64,000 nt of DNA from Luteolibacter rhizosphaerae. Lineage in GTDB: Bacteria > Verrucomicrobiota > Verrucomicrobiia > Verrucomicrobiales > Akkermansiaceae. This document shows, piece by piece, positions 48,711 to 58,499 of this stretch; position 1 is the first letter of the stretch; each line of letters opens with the position of its first letter. The DNA is taken from assembly GCF_025950095.1 (NCBI RefSeq), contig NZ_JAPDDR010000006.1:1-64000 (forward strand), written 5' to 3'. Below the pieces are notes generated by a model that did not search any database, had not been told where the DNA came from, and saw only the letters and a program-made list of their open reading frames with translations. The position numbers and the translations under genes were made by a program.

Positions 48711-49952
48711 GTGAACGGTATGAAGCTTGGCGAAAAACTGGCGATTCTAGCGGATGCGGCGAAGTATGACGCCTCGTGCGCAAGTTCCGGGGCGAATCGC
48801 CGGGATTCTACCGGTGGTAGGGGAGTTGGCTCCGCAGGCGGCGCGGGCATCTGCCACAGCTATGCGCCGGATGGCCGCTGCATCTCCCTGCTCAAGATTC
48901 TTCTGACGAACCGCTGCCTTTACGATTGCCACTACTGCATCAATCGACGTTCGAGCAATGTCCGCCGCGCGGCCTTTACGGCGGAGGAGGCAGTGAAGCT
49001 CACACTCGATTTCTATAAGAGGAATTACATCGAAGGCCTCTTCCTCAGCTCGGGAATCATCCGCAGCGCCGATCACACCATGGAGCAGGTGGTGAATGTC
49101 GCCCGCACCCTGCGGGAGGAACATGACTTCCGGGGCTACATTCATCTCAAAACCATTCCCGAGGCGTCTGCGGAACTGATCGAGCAAGCGGCCTGCTATG
49201 CGGACCGGATCAGCATCAATCTCGAACTGCCCACCCAGGAAAGTCTGGAAACACTTGCACCCGAGAAGAATCTGGGACGGACGAAGCAGGCCATGGGGCG
49301 CATCCGCGTGAAGCTGGAAGATGCGGCGGAACGGAAGCGGACGGGCGACCGCAAGTTGCGCCATGCCACCGGGCAGAGCACGCAGGTTATCGTGGGTGCC
49401 GATGCTTCGACCGATGCCGATTTCCTAGCGCGCTCGGACGAGCTCTACCGTTCCTATCGCCTGAAGCGGGTCTACTACTCGGCTTTCAGCCCGATTCCCG
49501 AGCCGTCCTCGATCCTCCCTGCCGCTGCCCCGCCTCTGCTCCGCGAACATCGCCTTTACCAAGCGGATTGGATGATGCGCTACTATGGCTTTAGTAAATC
49601 GGAGATCGTCCCCGCGGATCATCCCCATCTGGATCTCCACATGGATCCCAAGCTGGCCTGGGCCTTGAGAAACCGGGAGGAATTCCCCTTGGATCTCCAG
49701 CGTGCTTCCCGTGACCGGCTTCTCCGTATCCCGGGTTTGGGGGTGAAGAATGTTGATCGACTTCTGGTGATTCGCCGTCACAAGAATTTGCGGCTGGAGG
49801 ATCTCGCCCGCTTGCGCGTCTCGCTGGATAAGGTGCGGCCCTTCGTGATCACGGCGGATCATCACCCGGCCCGCTATCATCTCGATAGCGATCGCTTGCT
49901 GGCGCGTTTCGCGCCGAAGCCCGAGCAACTCGAACTCTTCGGTCGTGCGTAG
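48711..49952 (+). CDS. Radical SAM DNA modification/repair protein (TIGR03916 type)
   Basis: The 413-residue protein has the radical SAM cysteines C69-x3-C73-x2-C76 in NRCLYDCHYCINRR, an SPL-like core and a C-terminal helix-hairpin-helix (LLRIPGLGVKNVDRLLV) for DNA binding. It belongs with proteins annotated as putative DNA modification/repair radical SAM, related to spore photoproduct lyase. Its stop overlaps the next start by 8 bases, and the partner is a DUF4130-UdgX fusion; this pair recurs widely. The lesion is not established. Confidence 0.93.
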   Translation: MNGMKLGEKLAILADAAKYDASCASSGANRRDSTGGRGVGSAGGAGICHSYAPDGRCISLLKILLTNRCLYDCHYCINRRSSNVRRAAFTAEEAVKLTLDFYKRNYIEGLFLSSGIIRSADHTMEQVVNVARTLREEHDFRGYIHLKTIPEASAELIEQAACYADRISINLELPTQESLETLAPEKNLGRTKQAMGRIRVKLEDAAERKRTGDRKLRHATGQSTQVIVGADASTDADFLARSDELYRSYRLKRVYYSAFSPIPEPSSILPAAAPPLLREHRLYQADWMMRYYGFSKSEIVPADHPHLDLHMDPKLAWALRNREEFPLDLQRASRDRLLRIPGLGVKNVDRLLVIRRHKNLRLEDLARLRVSLDKVRPFVITADHHPARYHLDSDRLLARFAPKPEQLELFGRA

Positions 49953-51375
49953 GGTTGACCCGGGAAATGGTTTCGAGTCGTGGCGGAAGGCTGCCCGGGG
50001 CTTGCTTGGCGAAGGTGTGCCGCCCGGCGAGGTGCTGTGGGAGGCGGAAGAGAACGGCTCGCTCTTCGGCTTTGAAGAGACCGCCCCGGTCACGGTTTCG
50101 GTTCGACCGGTCCCGCCCGCTTTCCTCGATCTCGCACGAGAGGTTGCTTGCCATTCGGATGCGCGGCGCTGGGCCTTGCTCTATCGCTTGCTCTGGAGAA
50201 TTGCGTGCTTGGGCGAGCGCAGTCTTCTCGAAATCGCCAGCGATCCAGATGTCGCGCGGGCAAGGTTGATGGCGAAGAACGTGCGCCGGGAGATTCACAA
50301 GATGCATGCCTTCGTACGCTTTCGGAAAGCAGGCGAGAACGAAGAGCGGCGCGAACGCTTCGTCGCATGTTTCGAGCCGGATCACTTCATCGTGGAGCCC
50401 GGCGTGCCCTTTTTCCGGAAGCGCTTCGCGAATATGGACTGGTCGATCTTCACTCCCAAGGGCTGCGCCCACTGGATCGGTGGAGAGATGCGTTTCAGTC
50501 CCGGTGTGGAGAAAGATCCCTGCGACGACCCGGACCTCATGGAGGAGATCTGGCGTACCTATTATCGCAGCATCTTCAATCCGGCCCGGCTCAAGATGAA
50601 AGCCATGCAGGCGGAGATGCCCAAACGCTATTGGAAGAATTTGCCGGAGGCGGGCCTGATTCAGGAGTTGGCACGCGGGAGCGCGGTCCGTACCCAGGGA
50701 ATGATCGAGGAGGAGGGGCGGGACGTGCGTCCCGAGCCGCGCAATGCCTATCTATCCCACTTGCGGGAGATCTCCCTGCCGCCCCGCGAAGCCGAACCAG
50801 ATTCCCTTGATGAGATCGCGAAGATGGTGACCGCTTGCCGCCGCTGCGCCTTGTGGAACAATGCGACCTGCGGCGTTCCCGGTGTCGGTCCCGGCGATGC
50901 CCGGATCATGATCGTCGGTGAGCAACCGGGTGATCGTGAGGATCTCGAAGGAAAGCCCTTCGTCGGGCCGGCGGGTCAGCTTCTCGATCGCGCACTTGCC
51001 GAGGCAGGAATCGATCGGGGTTCCGCCTATCTCACGAATGCCGTGAAGCACTTCAAGTGGACTCCTCGTGGAAAGATCCGCCTCCACCAGAAACCCGGTG
51101 CCGGGGAGATCGAAGCTTGCAAGCCATGGCTCCTCGCGGAGCTTTCAAGGCTGGCACCTCAGGTTCTGGTTCTCCTCGGGAACACTGCCGCACGGTCTCT
51201 CCTCGGGCCGGGCGTTCAAGTGTCCAAGATGCATGGCTTGATCGAAGCTCCGCATCTCGCGTCCCGCGTGATCCTCACGGTGCACCCCTCCTTTCTCCTA
51301 CGGCAGGTGGATGAGATGAAGAAGGAAATCGAGTTCCGTCAGTTCATCGCGGACCTGCGCTTGGCTGTGGTCTAA
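49945..51375 (+). CDS. DUF4130 (TIGR03915)-UdgX fusion, uracil-DNA binding protein
   Basis: Two domains are fused. Residues about 45-265 match DUF4130/TIGR03915 (FEPDHFIVEPGVPFFRKRFAN, DWSIFTPKGCAHWIGGEMRF). Residues about 285-476 are UdgX: CRRC for the iron-sulfur cluster (C298, C301), GEQPGDREDLEGKPF (325-339), the UdgX-specific loop RLHQKPG with His381, and VHPSF. In UdgX that His forms a covalent bond with the uracil site. The start is GTG 49945, overlapping the radical SAM gene by 8 bases. The two probably act in one repair pathway. Confidence 0.93.
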   Translation: MRRVDPGNGFESWRKAARGLLGEGVPPGEVLWEAEENGSLFGFEETAPVTVSVRPVPPAFLDLAREVACHSDARRWALLYRLLWRIACLGERSLLEIASDPDVARARLMAKNVRREIHKMHAFVRFRKAGENEERRERFVACFEPDHFIVEPGVPFFRKRFANMDWSIFTPKGCAHWIGGEMRFSPGVEKDPCDDPDLMEEIWRTYYRSIFNPARLKMKAMQAEMPKRYWKNLPEAGLIQELARGSAVRTQGMIEEEGRDVRPEPRNAYLSHLREISLPPREAEPDSLDEIAKMVTACRRCALWNNATCGVPGVGPGDARIMIVGEQPGDREDLEGKPFVGPAGQLLDRALAEAGIDRGSAYLTNAVKHFKWTPRGKIRLHQKPGAGEIEACKPWLLAELSRLAPQVLVLLGNTAARSLLGPGVQVSKMHGLIEAPHLASRVILTVHPSFLLRQVDEMKKEIEFRQFIADLRLAVV

Positions 51376-51477: not shown

Positions 51478-51967
51478 ATGATCACCATCAATTCCGCGGT
51501 CATTGCCGCTCTCGTTTCCCTCTCCGCGGCGCAGGCCGGGACCATCGTGACCGAATCGCCTGCTTCGACAGGAGGCTTCTCCAATGCCCGGCGTCCGATC
51601 AGCAATCCCACGCTTTTCGATCTGGCTCTGCCGACAACCCATATTCACCCCATCGCCATCTACCAGCGGCTGCCGGATTTCGTAAACTCGACCATTGGGG
51701 CCCTTCTTCAGCCAGGCGGGCGGCGCGGTCCCTGTCGTGGCCACTTTCGAGGGGATGGATCTGCTGGACTTCGGATCATCGAATGCCTCGCAGAACCGGG
51801 ATTTCGTGACGGCGGCGGTCGGGTTTCGTTCCCGGCTTGCCGATGATATCGATGCGGGCTTGGCCTACGAAATCCCGCTCAAGGATAAAGGCGACGGCAT
51901 CATGGAAGATCGCGTCACGCTGATCTGGTTTGGACATTCTAAGCGAGCTCAAGGCTCCAAGCGGTAA
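51478..51967 (+). pseudogene. Frameshifted secreted-protein gene
   Basis: Reading from ATG 51478 gives a signal peptide (SAVIAALVSLSAAQAG) and SNPTLFDLALPTTHIHPIAIYQRLP, typical of outer-surface proteins in PVC genomes. Continuation in the same frame becomes Gly/Arg-rich nonsense after TIG. Removing one G from GGGG (51697-51700) joins it to PFFSQAGGAVPVVATFEGMD, which runs to a stop at 51967 and gives a sensible 162-residue protein. So it has a one-base frameshift: inactivated, or a sequencing error in that run. It ends convergently on the response regulator, overlapping by 19 bases. Confidence 0.75.
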
Positions 51968-52626
51968 CCGGTCCCTCGCACGGTTACGAGGTATCGTGGC
52001 CGTGCGGGATCGTCTTCCAGCTTGGTCCGCAGCGCGGCGATGAAGTTGTCCACGGTCCGCGTGCTGGGATAGGCATGGTAACCCCAGACGACATCCAGGA
52101 ATCTCTCGCGGCTTACAGTCTCTCCCGGATGAGACGCGAGAAGGCGCAGCATTCCAGCTTCCTTCTCGGAAAGCTCCAGCGTTGTGCCGTCGCGAACCAG
52201 CAGGCGCTTGGAGAGATCGATCCTCGCGTTCCCCAAGCTGAACTCGTCGCTTATCGTGCTCTCGCGATCCTTCCGGCGTAGCAGTGCCCGGATCCGGGCG
52301 AGGAGCTCGTCGAGACTGAAGGGTTTGACGAGGTAATCATCCGCTCCGCTGTCGAGTCCGTTGACGCGGTCTTCCACCTGACCCTTGGCCGTTAGCATGA
52401 GCACGGCGCTGTCACGGCCACGCTTGCGCAGCTCACGGCACAATGCGAAGCCATCGAGGCCGGGCATCATCACGTCCAACAGGATAAGGTCGAAACCTTC
52501 GGTGCAGGCGAGTTCAAGTCCGGAGATCCCATCCGGAGCGGAAGTGACCCGGTAGCCCTCGGCGCGGAGTGTCTCGACCAATGCGGTGCGCATCGGCGCC
52601 TCGTCTTCGATCACCAGAAGTCTCAT
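51949..52626 (-). CDS. OmpR-family response regulator
   Basis: The 225-residue protein has a receiver domain (VIEDEAPMR, phospho-Asp in LILLDVMMPG, Lys in LVKPFS) and a winged-helix DNA-binding domain (FLDVVWGYHAYPSTRTVDNFIAALRTKLE). It overlaps the upstream histidine kinase gene by four bases, which in turn overlaps the ankyrin gene. It is the output of that operon; its target genes are not visible here. Confidence 0.97.
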   Translation of the reverse strand: MRLLVIEDEAPMRTALVETLRAEGYRVTSAPDGISGLELACTEGFDLILLDVMMPGLDGFALCRELRKRGRDSAVLMLTAKGQVEDRVNGLDSGADDYLVKPFSLDELLARIRALLRRKDRESTISDEFSLGNARIDLSKRLLVRDGTTLELSEKEAGMLRLLASHPGETVSRERFLDVVWGYHAYPSTRTVDNFIAALRTKLEDDPARPRYLVTVRGTGYRLEP

Positions 52627-54212
52627 CGGGGGAGGTGGAGGATGAAGGTGCTTCCCTTGCCCGGCTCGCTCTCGAGGTCAACCGAGCCGTCATGGGCTTC
52701 GGCGATGGACTTCACCAGGCTCAGCCCGATGCCGCTGCCCTGTGTCTCGCGGCGGAGTTCATCGCCCGGGCGGTAAAAACGTTCGAAGATCCGCTTGTGT
52801 TCGTGCTTCGGAATGCCGGTTCCTTCGTCCTTCACGCGAAGTTGGAATCTCGGCCCATCCTCGTAAAGCGAGACCTCGACCTGGCTGTCTGCCGGCGAGA
52901 ACTTGATCGCGTTGTCGAGCAGGTTGACCAATGCCTGTTGAATCGCTCCGGCATCAACTTTGGCTTCCACGGGCGCAAGCCGGGTTTCAAGGCTGATGTT
53001 CTTCTCCTTCGCGAGAGGCTCCATGAGCAGAACCGTGTCCGCTACCAAGGATTCCAGATCGGAGGGTTCAAGCTTCCACTGCCGCAGCCCTCGCTCGATC
53101 CGTGAGTGATCGAGCACGTTGCCGACCAAGGTCGAAAGTCGTGCTCCCTCCCGGGCGATCAGGCGATGGAATTCTTTCGCCGTCTCCGGTGCCACCTTCC
53201 CGGCTTCCAGGGCATCCGCCATCAATCGGATCGAGGCCACCGGTGCACGAAGTTCATGCGAAACACTCGCGACGAACTGGCTCTTCATGTCGTTTAGCTG
53301 GCGCTCGCGGCGCAGGCTCCGCTGCATAACAGCAAGGGCCCCCAGAACGGTGGCGGCTGCGAGTCCAAGAGTGAGGAATGTCCATCGCTGCTGTCGACGG
53401 ATCGGTGCTTCGAGCTGATCTCCGAAGCCGTAGGCGTAAATTCCCAGTGTGAGCCCATCGCCGAGGGGAACAGGAGCAGTAGCGAGCGAGGGCCAGCGCG
53501 ACTTTTCCGCAAAGATGTAACTGAAGGCCCAACGTGGTAGGCCGAGTTTATGTTCAGTCGCTACGAGAGGCGCTGCGCCTGGCCTAAGATAGCTGGCGTA
53601 TCTGCCGCCGACCTTCACGAAGACGATCTGGGTCCCAAGCTCGGGCGCAGGTTCAAACCACTTGCCTTCCGGGTTATGCGCCTTTCTTGCAAGTTGCCTC
53701 ACAGCTTCATGCTCGTGCCACGTGTTCCGGCCAAGAACCAGAAGGCGCTTGCTGAAAGCAGCACGCGTGATGACTGATGGAGCCTCCTTCACCAGAATCT
53801 GCTCAAGAAGATCCTGCTTCTGGCGATGCCGATCCAGAGTCTGAATTCGCAATGCTGCCAAAGCTCGCCGCGGAATTCCTCCCGGCGATATCCCTGCATT
53901 CGGATCGTCTCTTAGCTTCTCAAGAGCGGTAAGATCTTCGCCATCGAGAATCGCATCGAGCTCCGATGCTTCTCCGGGAACCGGCGGGTCGGGATAGATA
54001 GGGATGGTCGTCATCTGCGCTTGCAGATCCTTGGCGAGCGCCCCGGCAAGGATGGGGGCCATACGCTCGGCCTCTCCCCGCGCATCTGCCCAAGCCGCTT
54101 TCATCTGAGCACGGGTTCCCATGACCGCTAGCGCTACAAGCACAACCAGCGGTAGAATCACCGCCAGCCAAGGCCACAGCGGGAGCTTCGCGGAATGTCT
54201 TTTTCCCTTCAT
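52623..54212 (-). CDS. Membrane sensor histidine kinase
   Basis: The 529-residue kinase has one span near the N-terminus (about 12-32, PWLAVILPLVVLVALAVMG), a large extracytoplasmic domain (33-275), a second span (about 280-297), and HisKA (ASVSHELRAPVASIRLMADAL) plus HATPase (LLDNAIKFSP, DEGTGIP, GSGIGLSL) domains. The sensor domain has no recognised family. Gene order ankyrin protein, kinase, regulator with four-base overlaps at both junctions suggests the exported ankyrin protein is its accessory or signal input. Confidence 0.95.
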   Translation of the reverse strand: MKGKRHSAKLPLWPWLAVILPLVVLVALAVMGTRAQMKAAWADARGEAERMAPILAGALAKDLQAQMTTIPIYPDPPVPGEASELDAILDGEDLTALEKLRDDPNAGISPGGIPRRALAALRIQTLDRHRQKQDLLEQILVKEAPSVITRAAFSKRLLVLGRNTWHEHEAVRQLARKAHNPEGKWFEPAPELGTQIVFVKVGGRYASYLRPGAAPLVATEHKLGLPRWAFSYIFAEKSRWPSLATAPVPLGDGLTLGIYAYGFGDQLEAPIRRQQRWTFLTLGLAAATVLGALAVMQRSLRRERQLNDMKSQFVASVSHELRAPVASIRLMADALEAGKVAPETAKEFHRLIAREGARLSTLVGNVLDHSRIERGLRQWKLEPSDLESLVADTVLLMEPLAKEKNISLETRLAPVEAKVDAGAIQQALVNLLDNAIKFSPADSQVEVSLYEDGPRFQLRVKDEGTGIPKHEHKRIFERFYRPGDELRRETQGSGIGLSLVKSIAEAHDGSVDLESEPGKGSTFILHLPR

Positions 54213-57200
54213 CGGGTGCTCGGCAGCTCAAGCGATGTGTTGCCGCTCCACTGGATCTTCAAACCATCTTTGAGGAAAAGGTTGCGAGTCGGGCCATCCC
54301 AAGAACTCCCGCTCCCCGCGGTTGTTTTGACATCGGCGTCGATCCCCAAGGCTCCTTCGGCGATGAACGTCGAGGTGCCTTCCTGCGGAGGCAGCGGAAT
54401 CCAACTTGCTCCCGCTTGGACATAGCGGGGCGGCTGATAACGGATCTGCCGCACCGAGAGTTGGTTCTCCTGATCGATGTATTGGATCTGCGCATCCAGC
54501 GCCTTTGAGAAGAGTAGCTGCTCGCGCGGACCGAAGCCTTTCCATGGCTCTTCAGGCAAGGGCGAACGGACGGGGATCTCGACGATATCCCCCGCTTTCA
54601 AAGCCACGTCGAAGTTGCGGGCGACTTCGACCGACAGTGAATCGTTGGCGGCCTCCAAGGCAGCTGTGAGATCCACGGAAATCTTCTCGTCGCTGCCGAC
54701 ATCCTTGAGCCGATGAATAACGATGCGGCTGAGGTCAGGATGAGAGAAGGTGCTGAGTATCACCTTGCGCTCTTGCTGCAGCTCGCAGAGCCAAGGCGCG
54801 AGTAGCGTGGGATCTGCAGGAGCATCCTTCAGTGTTTTCTGATTCGAGCCCTCAAGCTCGACAAGCAGTTGGAGTAGCGTGGGAACCGCGTCGGCTTGGG
54901 ACCACCCGGTGTTCCAACGGGAAGGAAAGCGGAAGTCCCGTTTGAACCGCGACCCAGGAGATACCACACGGACACGCTCCATGCGTGCCTCGTTCTCCAT
55001 GTCCTCCGCCTGCTCGCGAATCACGAGCTTCACATGGTCGCCGGCTTCGAGCGGGAAGTCGCGTCCGTCCGCATTCAAGGGCAGCTTGATTTCCGGCCAA
55101 TCCGTCCGCCTGACCAGAACGTGGTCGTCGGATCGCCACGGTTCGTCCCGATAGGTGGCTATCGCCGCCAGTGCGCGGGCCCCGACATAAGGTAACTCAT
55201 CCCCCGAAGGATCATCAGCAAGACGGGCACCATTGACTCGATAGTTTCGGTTCTCGCTGCCTTGCTCAACTGTGATCCCGAAAGCCAAATCCTTCCGGAG
55301 CAACCATGAGGCGGAATGGATGGGGGCTCCACCTGGCCGCATCCTAACCGGCGGGGATGTATCGCCTGCGGGGGCGACAGCCGATTCAACGATATCGCCC
55401 CACTGAAGCGCCGGAATGGCTGCCGGGTCTTCAGTGCCGAACTCGATCGCCTTGCGGCCTCCTTCCGGCGTCTCACGCCACAAGATGAAACGGAGGCGAA
55501 GCTGGTCCGAGGGACTCTGATCCGTCCAAGGCATTGGTCGGTCGAGCAGCGCCTTGAGAAGTGGAGGTGGTGCCGCGGAAGGCGTCTTAGGACAGAGAAC
55601 CGCGATGTCCGAGTAGGTTATGGTGTGATGAACCCACCGCACCTCATCGCGATGCTCGATGGCTTGGGCCACGAACTGGCGGAAGAGCTCAGGCCTCGCG
55701 GGAAGGGATGCCCGGCGACTTCCCATCGGCTGAGGAGTTCCGGGTGTCGGTAGCGACTGCACTTCAGCGGAAGCAGGCTTCAGGATGACACGGAAGTTCT
55801 CGCTCAGCCACCCTGCGTCGGGTTTTGCGCCTTTTTCTATCAGCTTCTTGAGGAGGCCCGAACCCGAGGATTGGGATGCCGCGATGATGAGCGGTGAAGC
55901 TCCAACACCCGGCGAGGGATCGGGATCGGCGCCCTTCTCCAAAAGCTTCTCCGCCACGCCCCATTCTTGCGAGAGGCAGGCCTTGAGAAGGAGAGCTTCC
56001 CGTCCTTTCCTCACGTTCGGATCCGCCCCGGCATCGAGAAGTAGCTGCGCTACCGGACTTTTGGCATAGAAGAGAATCGGCCCGCCTTCATATTGGGCAT
56101 TTGGATCTGCCCCTAGGGAGAGGATCAGCTCCACCCGTTTGAGGGCGTCGTGCGAGAACGAGTCGGCGGCATTCTTTACCGCTTCCCCGAGAAGCTCGGG
56201 ATCCTGGATCTTACCTCCAGCTTTCCGGATGGATTCACACGCCTTCGTCGCCCCTTTCCTGAATCCGAAATCGAGCGCCGAAATGGGTTTCTCGGTGCCC
56301 CAGGGAGATGAATCGGTGGGCGCAAGGCGACTGAGCGCATTGGGATCCGCCCCGGCCTGGAGAAGCCGTTCGATCAAAGCTACGTCACCCAATCCTGCCG
56401 CCAGGTGCAGCGGCGTGAAACCCGTTCCCGCCGCCGCGGCCTTCACATCCGCCTTAGCTTCCAGAAGCAGATCCACCGTCTTGGTTTGACCCGCCGCAAT
56501 CGCTTCCATCAGCGGGGTGCCAATCGGCCGTTCGGGCTGATCGGCCGCCCGATAGAAAGGCAGTGCGGACTGATCGGAGGACCAGTTGATGTCCGCCCCA
56601 GCCGCGATCAGGGCCTTCGCGATGTGTAAATGGCCGAGTGCTGCGGCTTTAAGCAAAGCCTCGTTCTCACCCGGTGAGTCAGGCTTGATGCCCTTCTTGA
56701 TCAGCAGATTGACCGTCTCCAGGGATCCGCTCGCGACTGCAATAGGCAGAAGCGCGAGGGTGTCCGGAGGTCCTGCTGTCTCCAGCAGATACGTGATGCT
56801 CTCGGCATCGCCCTTGCGAATCGCATCCACGAAAAGCTCTGGATCATTCAGGCGATCCGGACTGGTCTTCGCGAGCTGCTGTAGCGATGCGAGCATCGTC
56901 GGGGCCGGTGCCACTTTATCCGCTTCCAAGGGTTCCGCACCTAGGGCCGATAGATGGCCGCGTGCCAGCTTCAGCTCAGCCTCGGCCTGGGGAAACTCCC
57001 GGATCAGCCGCTGATACAGCCGGATCGCCTCGTCCTTGCGCTCCTGCTTGCGCCGCACCTCCGCCAATCGGAATAGCGCCGTTGCGGCGAATGGCCGCTG
57101 CTCCTCATGCAGGCGCAGGACCTTTTCGTAGCTCGCCGCGGCCTCCTCGGCATTTCGGCTGACTTCCTCCGCATAGAGTCCGTCTCTCAGAAGATCCCGC

Positions 57201-57292
57201 GGCGCGGCACCCTCCTCGGCTCGGAGGGAGAGAAGCGGCATGGTCATCGCGGCGATCAGCAGACTAAGGCGAGGAGTGGGGAATCGGGTCAT
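54209..57292 (-). CDS. Large exported TPR/ankyrin-repeat protein in a two-component operon
   Basis: The 1027-residue protein has a signal peptide (LSLLIAAMTMPLLSLRA), a TPR-like region (about 30-110: AASYEKVLRLHEEQRPFAATALFRLAEV), then some ten ankyrin-type repeats (about 150-510: GTPLMEAIAAGQTKTVDLLLEAKADV, TPLHLAAGLGDVALIERLLQAGADPN). A C-terminal region of about 450 residues has two GD-type segments (LEAGDHVKLVIRE, LKAGDIVEIPVRS) that recall SLBB-like polysaccharide-export modules. The stop overlaps the kinase start by four bases. It is probably periplasmic and feeds the kinase; this is inference. Confidence 0.9.
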   Translation of the reverse strand: MTRFPTPRLSLLIAAMTMPLLSLRAEEGAAPRDLLRDGLYAEEVSRNAEEAAASYEKVLRLHEEQRPFAATALFRLAEVRRKQERKDEAIRLYQRLIREFPQAEAELKLARGHLSALGAEPLEADKVAPAPTMLASLQQLAKTSPDRLNDPELFVDAIRKGDAESITYLLETAGPPDTLALLPIAVASGSLETVNLLIKKGIKPDSPGENEALLKAAALGHLHIAKALIAAGADINWSSDQSALPFYRAADQPERPIGTPLMEAIAAGQTKTVDLLLEAKADVKAAAAGTGFTPLHLAAGLGDVALIERLLQAGADPNALSRLAPTDSSPWGTEKPISALDFGFRKGATKACESIRKAGGKIQDPELLGEAVKNAADSFSHDALKRVELILSLGADPNAQYEGGPILFYAKSPVAQLLLDAGADPNVRKGREALLLKACLSQEWGVAEKLLEKGADPDPSPGVGASPLIIAASQSSGSGLLKKLIEKGAKPDAGWLSENFRVILKPASAEVQSLPTPGTPQPMGSRRASLPARPELFRQFVAQAIEHRDEVRWVHHTITYSDIAVLCPKTPSAAPPPLLKALLDRPMPWTDQSPSDQLRLRFILWRETPEGGRKAIEFGTEDPAAIPALQWGDIVESAVAPAGDTSPPVRMRPGGAPIHSASWLLRKDLAFGITVEQGSENRNYRVNGARLADDPSGDELPYVGARALAAIATYRDEPWRSDDHVLVRRTDWPEIKLPLNADGRDFPLEAGDHVKLVIREQAEDMENEARMERVRVVSPGSRFKRDFRFPSRWNTGWSQADAVPTLLQLLVELEGSNQKTLKDAPADPTLLAPWLCELQQERKVILSTFSHPDLSRIVIHRLKDVGSDEKISVDLTAALEAANDSLSVEVARNFDVALKAGDIVEIPVRSPLPEEPWKGFGPREQLLFSKALDAQIQYIDQENQLSVRQIRYQPPRYVQAGASWIPLPPQEGTSTFIAEGALGIDADVKTTAGSGSSWDGPTRNLFLKDGLKIQWSGNTSLELPSTR

Positions 57293-57419
57293 GGCGGGAC
57301 ATTCGCAGGTTCCGTCCTCCGGTTTGTCATGGAACGGTCATGAACGCAAGGTGACCGCCTGTCTCCGGGCCCGGACCTTCGGCATTGCGCCGCCGCCCGG
57401 TGTCGATAGCGTCACGGGC

Positions 57420-58499
57420 GTGAAGGAAAAGGCGATCTCCCTGCTGCAGGAACTGACGGAGGCCCACTCGGTGCCGGGTCATGAGGACGAAGTGCGCGCC
57501 ATCTTCGTGGACGAACTCGAGGAGTGTGGCACGCTCTCCGCCGATCGCTCCGGCTGCGTCTTCTGCGAGCTGGAAGGGGAGGGGCCCCGCGTCATCATCG
57601 CCGGACACATGGATGAAGTCGGCTTCCTAGTACAGAACATCACGCCCGACGGCTTCATCCAGTTCCTTGCCGTCGGCGGTTGGTGGGAGCACAGCCTGCT
57701 CTCCCAGCGCGTCGAGATCCGCACCCGCTCCGGGGAGAAGATCACCGGCGTCGTCGCTTCCAAGCCTCCTCACTTCCTGCCGGAAGCCCAGCGCCGCCAG
57801 GTCATGACCATCGACCAGATGTTCATCGACGTTGGCGCCACTTCCCGTCTCGAGGTCGAACAGGAATTCGGCATCTCGCTCGGCGATCCGATCGCACCGC
57901 TCTCGCCCTTCACTCCCATGCAACGCGAGGACTGGTACATGGCGAAAGCCTTCGACAACCGCGTGGGCATGGCCGGCACCATCCAGGCAGGCAAGCAACT
58001 CGCCGGGACCCTGCACTCTAACAAAATCATCCTCGCCGGCACCGTGCAGGAGGAGGTCGGACTTCGCGGGGCGAAGACCGCCGCCAACTTCGCCAAGCCG
58101 GATGTCGCCATCATCCTCGAAGGCCCTCCTGCCGATGATACTCCCGGCTTCTCTCGTGCCGAATCCCAAGGCCGCCTCGGCGGTGGCGTGCAGATCCGCC
58201 TCTTCGATCCCAGCGCAATCATGAATCCGCGCCTTGCCGATCTAGCGATCCGCACCGCGAAGGAAGAAGGCATCCCGCATCAAGTCACCGTCCGACGCAG
58301 CGGCGGTACGGATGCCGGCTCATTCCATCTTGCGGGGGAGGGGATCCCCTCCGTTGTGCTCGGTGTGCCGGCCCGCTACATCCACTCGCACAACTCGATC
58401 ATCGATCTGAACGACTACCTCCACATGGTATCGCTCGCCGTCGCCCTGGCGCGCCGCCTCGATGACTCCACGGTCAAGGGCCTCACCCGTTTCCTCTGA
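57420..58499 (+). CDS. M42-family glutamyl/deblocking aminopeptidase
   Basis: The 359-residue protein has the co-catalytic metal site of the M42 family: GHMDEVG, KAFDNRVG, QEEVGLRG and the final SHNSI. M42 enzymes trim peptides in the cytoplasm, often as 12-subunit tetrahedra. I chose GTG 57420 (VKEKAISLLQELTEAHSVPGHE) because the family begins there; the in-frame ATG at 57240 lies inside the divergent ankyrin gene. A strong terminator follows. Confidence 0.93.
   Translation: MKEKAISLLQELTEAHSVPGHEDEVRAIFVDELEECGTLSADRSGCVFCELEGEGPRVIIAGHMDEVGFLVQNITPDGFIQFLAVGGWWEHSLLSQRVEIRTRSGEKITGVVASKPPHFLPEAQRRQVMTIDQMFIDVGATSRLEVEQEFGISLGDPIAPLSPFTPMQREDWYMAKAFDNRVGMAGTIQAGKQLAGTLHSNKIILAGTVQEEVGLRGAKTAANFAKPDVAIILEGPPADDTPGFSRAESQGRLGGGVQIRLFDPSAIMNPRLADLAIRTAKEEGIPHQVTVRRSGGTDAGSFHLAGEGIPSVVLGVPARYIHSHNSIIDLNDYLHMVSLAVALARRLDDSTVKGLTRFL

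Follow-up and report, generated by a model that had tools for sequence, protein, structure and literature searches.

Three adjacent genes on the minus strand of Luteolibacter rhizosphaerae, encoding a large repeat protein with an exported-type start, a sensor histidine kinase and an OmpR/PhoB-type response regulator, probably make up a three-component envelope signalling module that regulates itself. The apparently exported protein would be the dedicated target of this system and probably also the extracytoplasmic partner of the kinase. The literature that we searched, which lies mostly outside subscription journals, yielded no publication on this triplet. The features are listed below by their positions in the window, i.e. 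the whole stretch of 64,000 nucleotides that was analysed.

57323..57343, minus strand: putative operator TCATGACCGTTCCATGACAAA, a direct repeat of two 7-bp units set 4 bp apart, whose end lies 30 bp ahead of the ATG
54209..57292, minus strand: repeat-protein gene (TPR–ankyrin–β-grasp, signal-peptide-like start), ORF of 1027 aa, domains from Pfam and a model
57215..57292, minus strand: signal-peptide-like N-terminus (residues 1–26), a hydrophobic stretch and an A-x-A-like site by a simple rule
56918..57211, minus strand: TPR segment (residues 28–125; Pfam), the most conserved part
55808..56845, minus strand: ankyrin repeats (residues ~150–495; Pfam), variable
54239..55657, minus strand: four tandem β-grasp units as predicted by AlphaFold2 (model m00601b19da91)
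52623..54212, minus strand: sensor histidine kinase gene, ORF of 529 aa, with two hydrophobic segments flanking the sensor
53382..54119, minus strand: predicted extracytoplasmic sensor (residues 32–277; model m6af4e86abc99, pLDDT 85.4)
51949..52626, minus strand: OmpR/PhoB-type response regulator gene, ORF of 225 aa, recognition-helix motif RTVDNFI

The ORFs agree with the original prediction of three minus-strand genes that overlap by 4 bases at each of the two junctions. Among 24 other modules sharing this gene order, the repeat-to-kinase gap is at most 31 bp in 22, the exceptions being 1001 bp in L069 and 372 bp in L071; the gaps were measured from the in-frame start codon nearest the stop, so that the figures are tilted towards short values. 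An AbiEii-type nucleotidyltransferase gene (L069:4485-5093; 202 residues, Pfam E 2e-18) lies between the repeat and kinase genes of L069. Two genes at window 48711-51375, which we take to be radical-SAM-like and uracil-DNA-glycosylase-like, are oriented towards the module; counterparts of both adjoin the module in G154 (L049), and of the second one only in G097 (L053). The divergent peptidase-like gene at 57240-58499 is presumably of the M42 type, and its mechanical ORF overlaps both the start of the repeat gene and the candidate operator; its homology starts at codon 45–49 in two relatives and at codon 17 in another, which probably places the real start codon downstream of the ORF start.

The repeat protein evolves at very different rates along its length: mean pairwise identity among 20 sequences is 53% over TPR residues 30–125 and 60% over the TPR core (66–112), 29% in the ankyrin part and 22–30% in the C-terminal β-grasp units. 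Pfam bears out the TPR and ankyrin repeats claimed for this product (TPR ~45–103, ankyrin up to ~490), and the exported-type start claimed for it is seen as a signal-peptide-like N-terminus in 18 of the 20 sequences, the window's included, by a rule that is simple and untrained. Past about residue 490 Pfam is empty, in line with the earlier statement that the C-terminus matches no known family. Our AlphaFold2 model of the C-terminal 531 residues (mean pLDDT 77.8, pTM 0.77) has the β-grasp fold of the SLBB family (PF10531), and the C-terminus models as four tandem β-grasp units of SLBB-like fold, at about residues 546–646, 659–764, 768–914 and 920–1018. The “two SLBB-like GD segments” noted earlier correspond to ends of β-grasp units, and the model shows four such units.

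With VIA-align, the best match of unit 3 is WzaB (Z 6.1, rmsd 2.9, 84 aligned), Wza also matches unit 3 (Z 5.7, rmsd 2.9, 80 aligned) and GfcC matches unit 2 (Z 5.5, rmsd 5.4, 79 aligned); since all Z scores are below 8 and unrelated β-grasp chains come within one unit of them, these alignments back the fold and not family membership. Foldseek returned tandem ubiquitin-like chains with low TM-scores for the C-terminus, which we took as the common β-grasp fold only. In hhalign, unit 1 is related to unit 3 (E 9e-7), unit 2 weakly to unit 3 (6e-4), and the other pairs are unrelated. The SLBB sequence profile gave no Pfam match in 13 members; hhalign against six SLBB segments of the same genome reached E 0.029 at best, which is not significant; and profile searches of PDB sequences with the C-terminus and with the sensor gave nothing below E 0.2. 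The Poly_export domain is absent from the window protein according to Pfam and appears in one of 13 C-termini at E 0.22 only, and ThiS, a β-grasp protein, is a weak match below the cut-off (E 5.8e-4) at the C-terminus of the relative in L146. The C-terminal profile is unmatched in 11 of 29 complete modules, so the β-grasp part is non-universal or diverged; the L054 protein has another kind of C-terminus behind its TPR, in which no ankyrin or β-grasp part is recognised, and the kinase and regulator are kept.

Neither the kinase nor the regulator is unusual in its catalytic or DNA-binding part: Pfam finds HisKA (residues 309–375) and HATPase_c (420–528) in the kinase, and Response_reg and Trans_reg_C in the regulator, i.e. 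the histidine kinase and the receiver/winged-helix protein of an OmpR/PhoB-type two-component system; and the phosphoacceptor histidine H319 is invariant in 19 of 19 kinases. Named NCBIfam orthologues were considered and set aside, all models listed (25 of 88 for the kinase, 25 of 104 for the regulator) being under their cut-offs.

The kinase sensor had been called unrecognised, and Pfam indeed has no match for residues 32–277 of the window kinase; among 11 members the best E is 0.072, which is at chance level, and there is no Cache match. In structure, the model of the sensor resembles a divergent dCache domain and includes a conserved helical insert: it consists of a long first helix, a helical insert at about residues 73–160 and a β-sheet near the membrane; identity is 34% in the helical insert vs. 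20% in the sheet; and a G-x-P motif within the insert is invariant in 33 aligned sensors. VIA-align ranks four chemoreceptor sensor regions first (Z 5.1–6.1, rmsd 4.5–6.2, 135–147 aligned) and the LuxQ periplasmic domain also aligns (Z 4.0, rmsd 5.6, 124 aligned), all of them below Z 8, the level at which the tool warns; Foldseek with the sensor model returned nothing at E ≤ 0.001. The kinase as query has 43 matches in its own genome, and the other 42 span only residue 242 onward, so a second copy of the sensor was not found in that genome.

Profile maps of related genomes indicate that the repeat gene, the kinase gene and the regulator gene stay linked despite rearranged gene order. We searched the 288 genomes of the window's order with the sensor, matched in 18 genomes, and with the C-terminus, matched in 17, and inspected the flanks of the matches. 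The TPR segment proved the best family marker: a profile from 20 TPR segments separates 43 family places (E ≤ 6.6e-16) from ordinary TPRs (E ≥ 5e-11) by a clear gap, 20 of the 43 matching by construction as profile members and 23 lying outside the profile. These places make up 40 modules, because G265, G154 and G222:C74 carry two tandem repeat genes each. According to six-frame profile maps of the 288 genomes, the kinase and regulator adjoin the repeat gene in 29 of the 40 (the kinase being truncated by a contig end in two); 21 of these, including the window, have the order repeat gene–kinase–regulator and eight the order kinase–regulator–repeat gene. A contig end restricts the view in six more modules, one of which shows a partial kinase, and the remaining five are lone or broken (repeat gene alone in G134 and G043; fragments in G130, G098:C285 and G199).

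Kinase–regulator pairs without the ankyrin gene, which the original prediction had named as an observation that would break its functional link, were sought in the 288 genomes and were not seen. For the converse search we used 33 diverse sensors, which matched 34 places at E ≤ 1e-20: 29 share a contig with a repeat gene (the G199 module among them being broken), four are at contig ends and one, in G208, is a chimera lacking a kinase domain; distant kinases of the same kind could escape this count because the sensor profiles were made from module members. No complete kinase–regulator pair with both flanks readable was found without a repeat gene in these genomes. At G098:C165, where the sensor match is weaker, a full kinase and a regulator are present on a contig that stops ~220 bases upstream of the kinase. 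As to the earlier question of conservation across Verrucomicrobia, we saw the triplet in the window's order only: over the phylum the sensor was found in 5 of 387 genomes, all of the window's family, and the C-terminus in the same five plus one 25-residue match elsewhere; distant cases may be missed because this first look scored at most seven and at most three candidates per genome. The 15 named module loci belong to strains of Haloferula and Luteolibacter and to bins labelled as follows (Verrucomicrobia, Verrucomicrobiales, Akkermansiaceae, Verrucomicrobiaceae and, once, Akkermansia muciniphila). Only among members of one genus or family does any further gene recur beside the triplet in the partly annotated flanks, so the triplet is kept across many contexts.

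Several modules depart from the common form. Two tandem repeat genes stand before one kinase at L047:8504-15456, L049:3634-10127 and L147:7009-12616; each of those in G154 (L049) has its own exact operator copy, and the second one in G265 (L047) has a two-mismatch copy. The G134 repeat gene (L130:7047-8672) encodes TPR, ankyrin and a short C-terminus and has a top-scoring operator, and that of G043 (L143:4617-7779) is split into a TPR–ankyrin ORF and a separate C-terminal ORF; neither has a kinase or regulator within the 15 kb inspected. G208 (L153:6819-8414) joins a family sensor and the start of HisKA only to a C-terminus resembling a sulfatase-modifying factor, without a regulator or repeat gene, and is a chimera or a remnant.

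A PhoB-type operator motif, TCATGAC-N4-CCATGACA, recurs ahead of the module genes, the motif from 25 upstream regions being TCATGAC-N4-CCATGACAA. The top 8-mers (one mismatch allowed) occur in 22 of the 25 upstream regions vs. at most 13 in three shuffled sets; and tandem repeats upstream exceed the shuffles most at a period of 11, and slightly at periods of 9, 10 and 12. A matrix scan covering both strands of 47 sources (701,548 bases) returned 44 sites with a score of at least 18, all of them 81–170 bp before a TPR or sensor segment (41 at the repeat gene, three at the kinase gene); because the matrix was fitted to module regions, the presence of sites there is partly circular, and their absence elsewhere is not. 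The window site, a direct repeat upstream of its putative target gene, scores 29.6 with a matrix built without it, the runner-up in the window scoring 9.4. The RNA fold of the leader does not exceed shuffles.

Seven of the 47 sources have no site of at least 18 (L058, L067, L139, L143, L146, L147 and L148); complete modules among them are L067, L146 and L147, with best scores of 14.0, −6.3 and 15.8. Among modules with the order kinase–regulator–repeat gene, L133 and L138 carry the operator before both units, and L064 carries it before the kinase gene with a weaker one (about 16–18) before the repeat gene. Three of the six rearranged modules with a readable kinase start lack a good kinase-gene site: L142 and L145 have the operator before the repeat gene only, and L146 at neither place.

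In a genome-wide pattern search of 11 whole genomes, all with modules and chosen from the window's family, exact operator copies number 11, in 10 of the 11 genomes, and all lie before a repeat gene (two at the tandem genes of G154); in the eleventh genome, G091, the copy at the module departs from the motif by one mismatch. When up to two mismatches are allowed there are 95 matches, 14 at modules and 81 elsewhere; the latter number is at chance level, because the same pattern with its spacer altered to 6 or 9 bases gives 117 and 135 matches, none exact. A reversed-pattern control gave 0–2 matches per genome and is unmatched in dinucleotides, which makes the altered-spacer controls the fairer ones. 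Twenty-three of the 81 lie in a palindromic repeat of G100, a dispersed element of the type TCATGGCGCAGCCATGACG that occurs in 12 places and is apparently unrelated to the operator.

Weak additional targets may nevertheless exist: some two-mismatch non-module sites score up to 26.4, and one in G143:C2 (score 17.4) is ~50 bp before a 545-residue ORF without a Pfam family. Other candidates were discarded. The one-mismatch sites outside modules score 10.9 (G265:C12) and 18.7 (G143:C7, within an ORF); four of the six highest other non-module sites lie within ORFs (one of these 213 bp before a gene), and downstream of the other two no ORF on the same strand begins within 250 bp. The window genome has four two-mismatch sites: two within ORFs, one scoring 9.7 and one before an MFS transporter gene (score 22.1), the last without counterpart within 1.5 kb of three orthologues (six genomes searched, three having no orthologue).

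Across the candidate sites, half-site 1 varies with one recognition-helix residue of the regulator: TGAC accompanies F at 26 of 26 sites, H at 0 of 8 and Q at 2 of 2 (Fisher P 1.5e-6 for F vs. the rest, ignoring kinship and counting one H row, the second L147 gene with a score of −0.4, that is not a real site; one regulator has no readable motif). PhoP, a related regulator, recognises 7-bp repeats that a 4-bp spacer separates (PMC4832192), and the PhoB half-site TGTCA(T/C) (PMC3264566) is the reverse complement of the module half-site. The module resembles PhoB/PhoP-type systems in its receiver/winged-helix regulator and in direct repeats with an 11-bp period; unlike in those systems, the exact sites are at its own modules only among the 11 genomes. 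We infer that the module regulator binds the operator and controls transcription of its own module. This amends the earlier picture of a repeat protein that feeds the kinase: with the operator candidate preceding it, the repeat gene counts as an output at the least, and maybe as an input too; less surely, its product would also be the partner of the kinase outside the cytoplasmic membrane.

The strongest challenge to this dual role is that the repeat protein is an output only: the kinase would sense an envelope signal through its dCache-like domain, the regulator would switch the ankyrin gene, and the product of that gene would serve as an envelope scaffold or binding protein that makes no contact with the kinase. 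The candidate operator ahead of the ankyrin gene, with no other exact copy in the 11 genomes, and the modelled ligand-binding type of sensor fold both suit such an arrangement. We nevertheless regard it as rather unlikely: an output gene need not remain linked to its regulators, yet the linkage outlasts rearrangement, and of all extracytoplasmic parts the TPR and the helical insert of the sensor are conserved best.

A general Pho box, or the site of another global regulator, is a far less probable reading of the operator, and would imply a wider regulon and a binder other than the neighbouring regulator. The half-site does equal that of PhoB on the opposite strand (PMC3264566), and the lone repeat gene of G134 (L130) retains a top-scoring site with no regulator nearby; but exact copies occur at modules only in the 11 genomes, the half-site changes with the recognition helix of the module regulator, and the only good site that the window genome has outside modules, at the MFS gene, has no counterpart at the three orthologues. 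That the three genes are neighbours through chance or common expression only, as the lone repeat genes of G134 and G043 might suggest, is hard to credit with 29 of 40 modules complete, in two gene orders and among many unrelated flanks.

Our analysis points to a three-component module, with an accessory gene linked to its kinase, and strengthens the suspected functional link between the repeat protein and the kinase–regulator pair. In LuxP–LuxQ and HptA–HptS the partner of the kinase is a periplasmic binding protein. These are the closest known systems in their working: their partner outside the cytoplasmic membrane complexes with the kinase, and the LuxQ sensor is of PDC type (PMC8534201). 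By comparison with both, the putative partner here, judged from its sequence, is a TPR–ankyrin–β-grasp repeat protein. In the CpxP–CpxA–CpxR system an envelope protein is both the target of the regulator and the partner of the kinase; CpxR controls many genes and CpxP is small, whereas the present module has one clear predicted target, a protein of 1027 residues. The repeat protein resembles OPX/Wza export proteins in its predicted tandem β-grasp units, with WzaB, Wza and GfcC among the top structural matches, and differs from them in lacking Poly_export above the Pfam cut-off and in carrying TPR and ankyrin repeats in front.

We propose that the module regulator would bind the direct repeat ahead of the module genes and control module transcription; that, outside the cytoplasmic membrane, the TPR and the helical insert in the sensor of the kinase, both conserved, would form the docking contact; that the fast-evolving ankyrin and β-grasp parts would bind a variable ligand, protein or glycan; and that ligand occupancy would set kinase activity, such that the system would adjust the amount of its own receptor. 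A bolder version, which we offer tentatively as a possibility, is a closed loop with its own receptor as sole product, in which the regulator serves the module alone and the exported protein combines a conserved docking TPR with swappable, fast-diverging recognition parts (ankyrin and β-grasp), making up a self-contained device for surveillance or recognition that lineages have duplicated and refitted.

The targets of two-component systems commonly lie at other places in the genome, and ankyrin repeats have mostly been studied intracellularly; here we describe a two-component system that possibly serves nothing but itself and a repeat protein of giant size that is apparently exported. The module thereby opens the questions of what purpose a receptor-only signalling loop may have and what use is made of ankyrin repeats outside the cytoplasm, and the pairing of a helix residue with a half-site offers a handle on how such regulators shift their DNA specificity.
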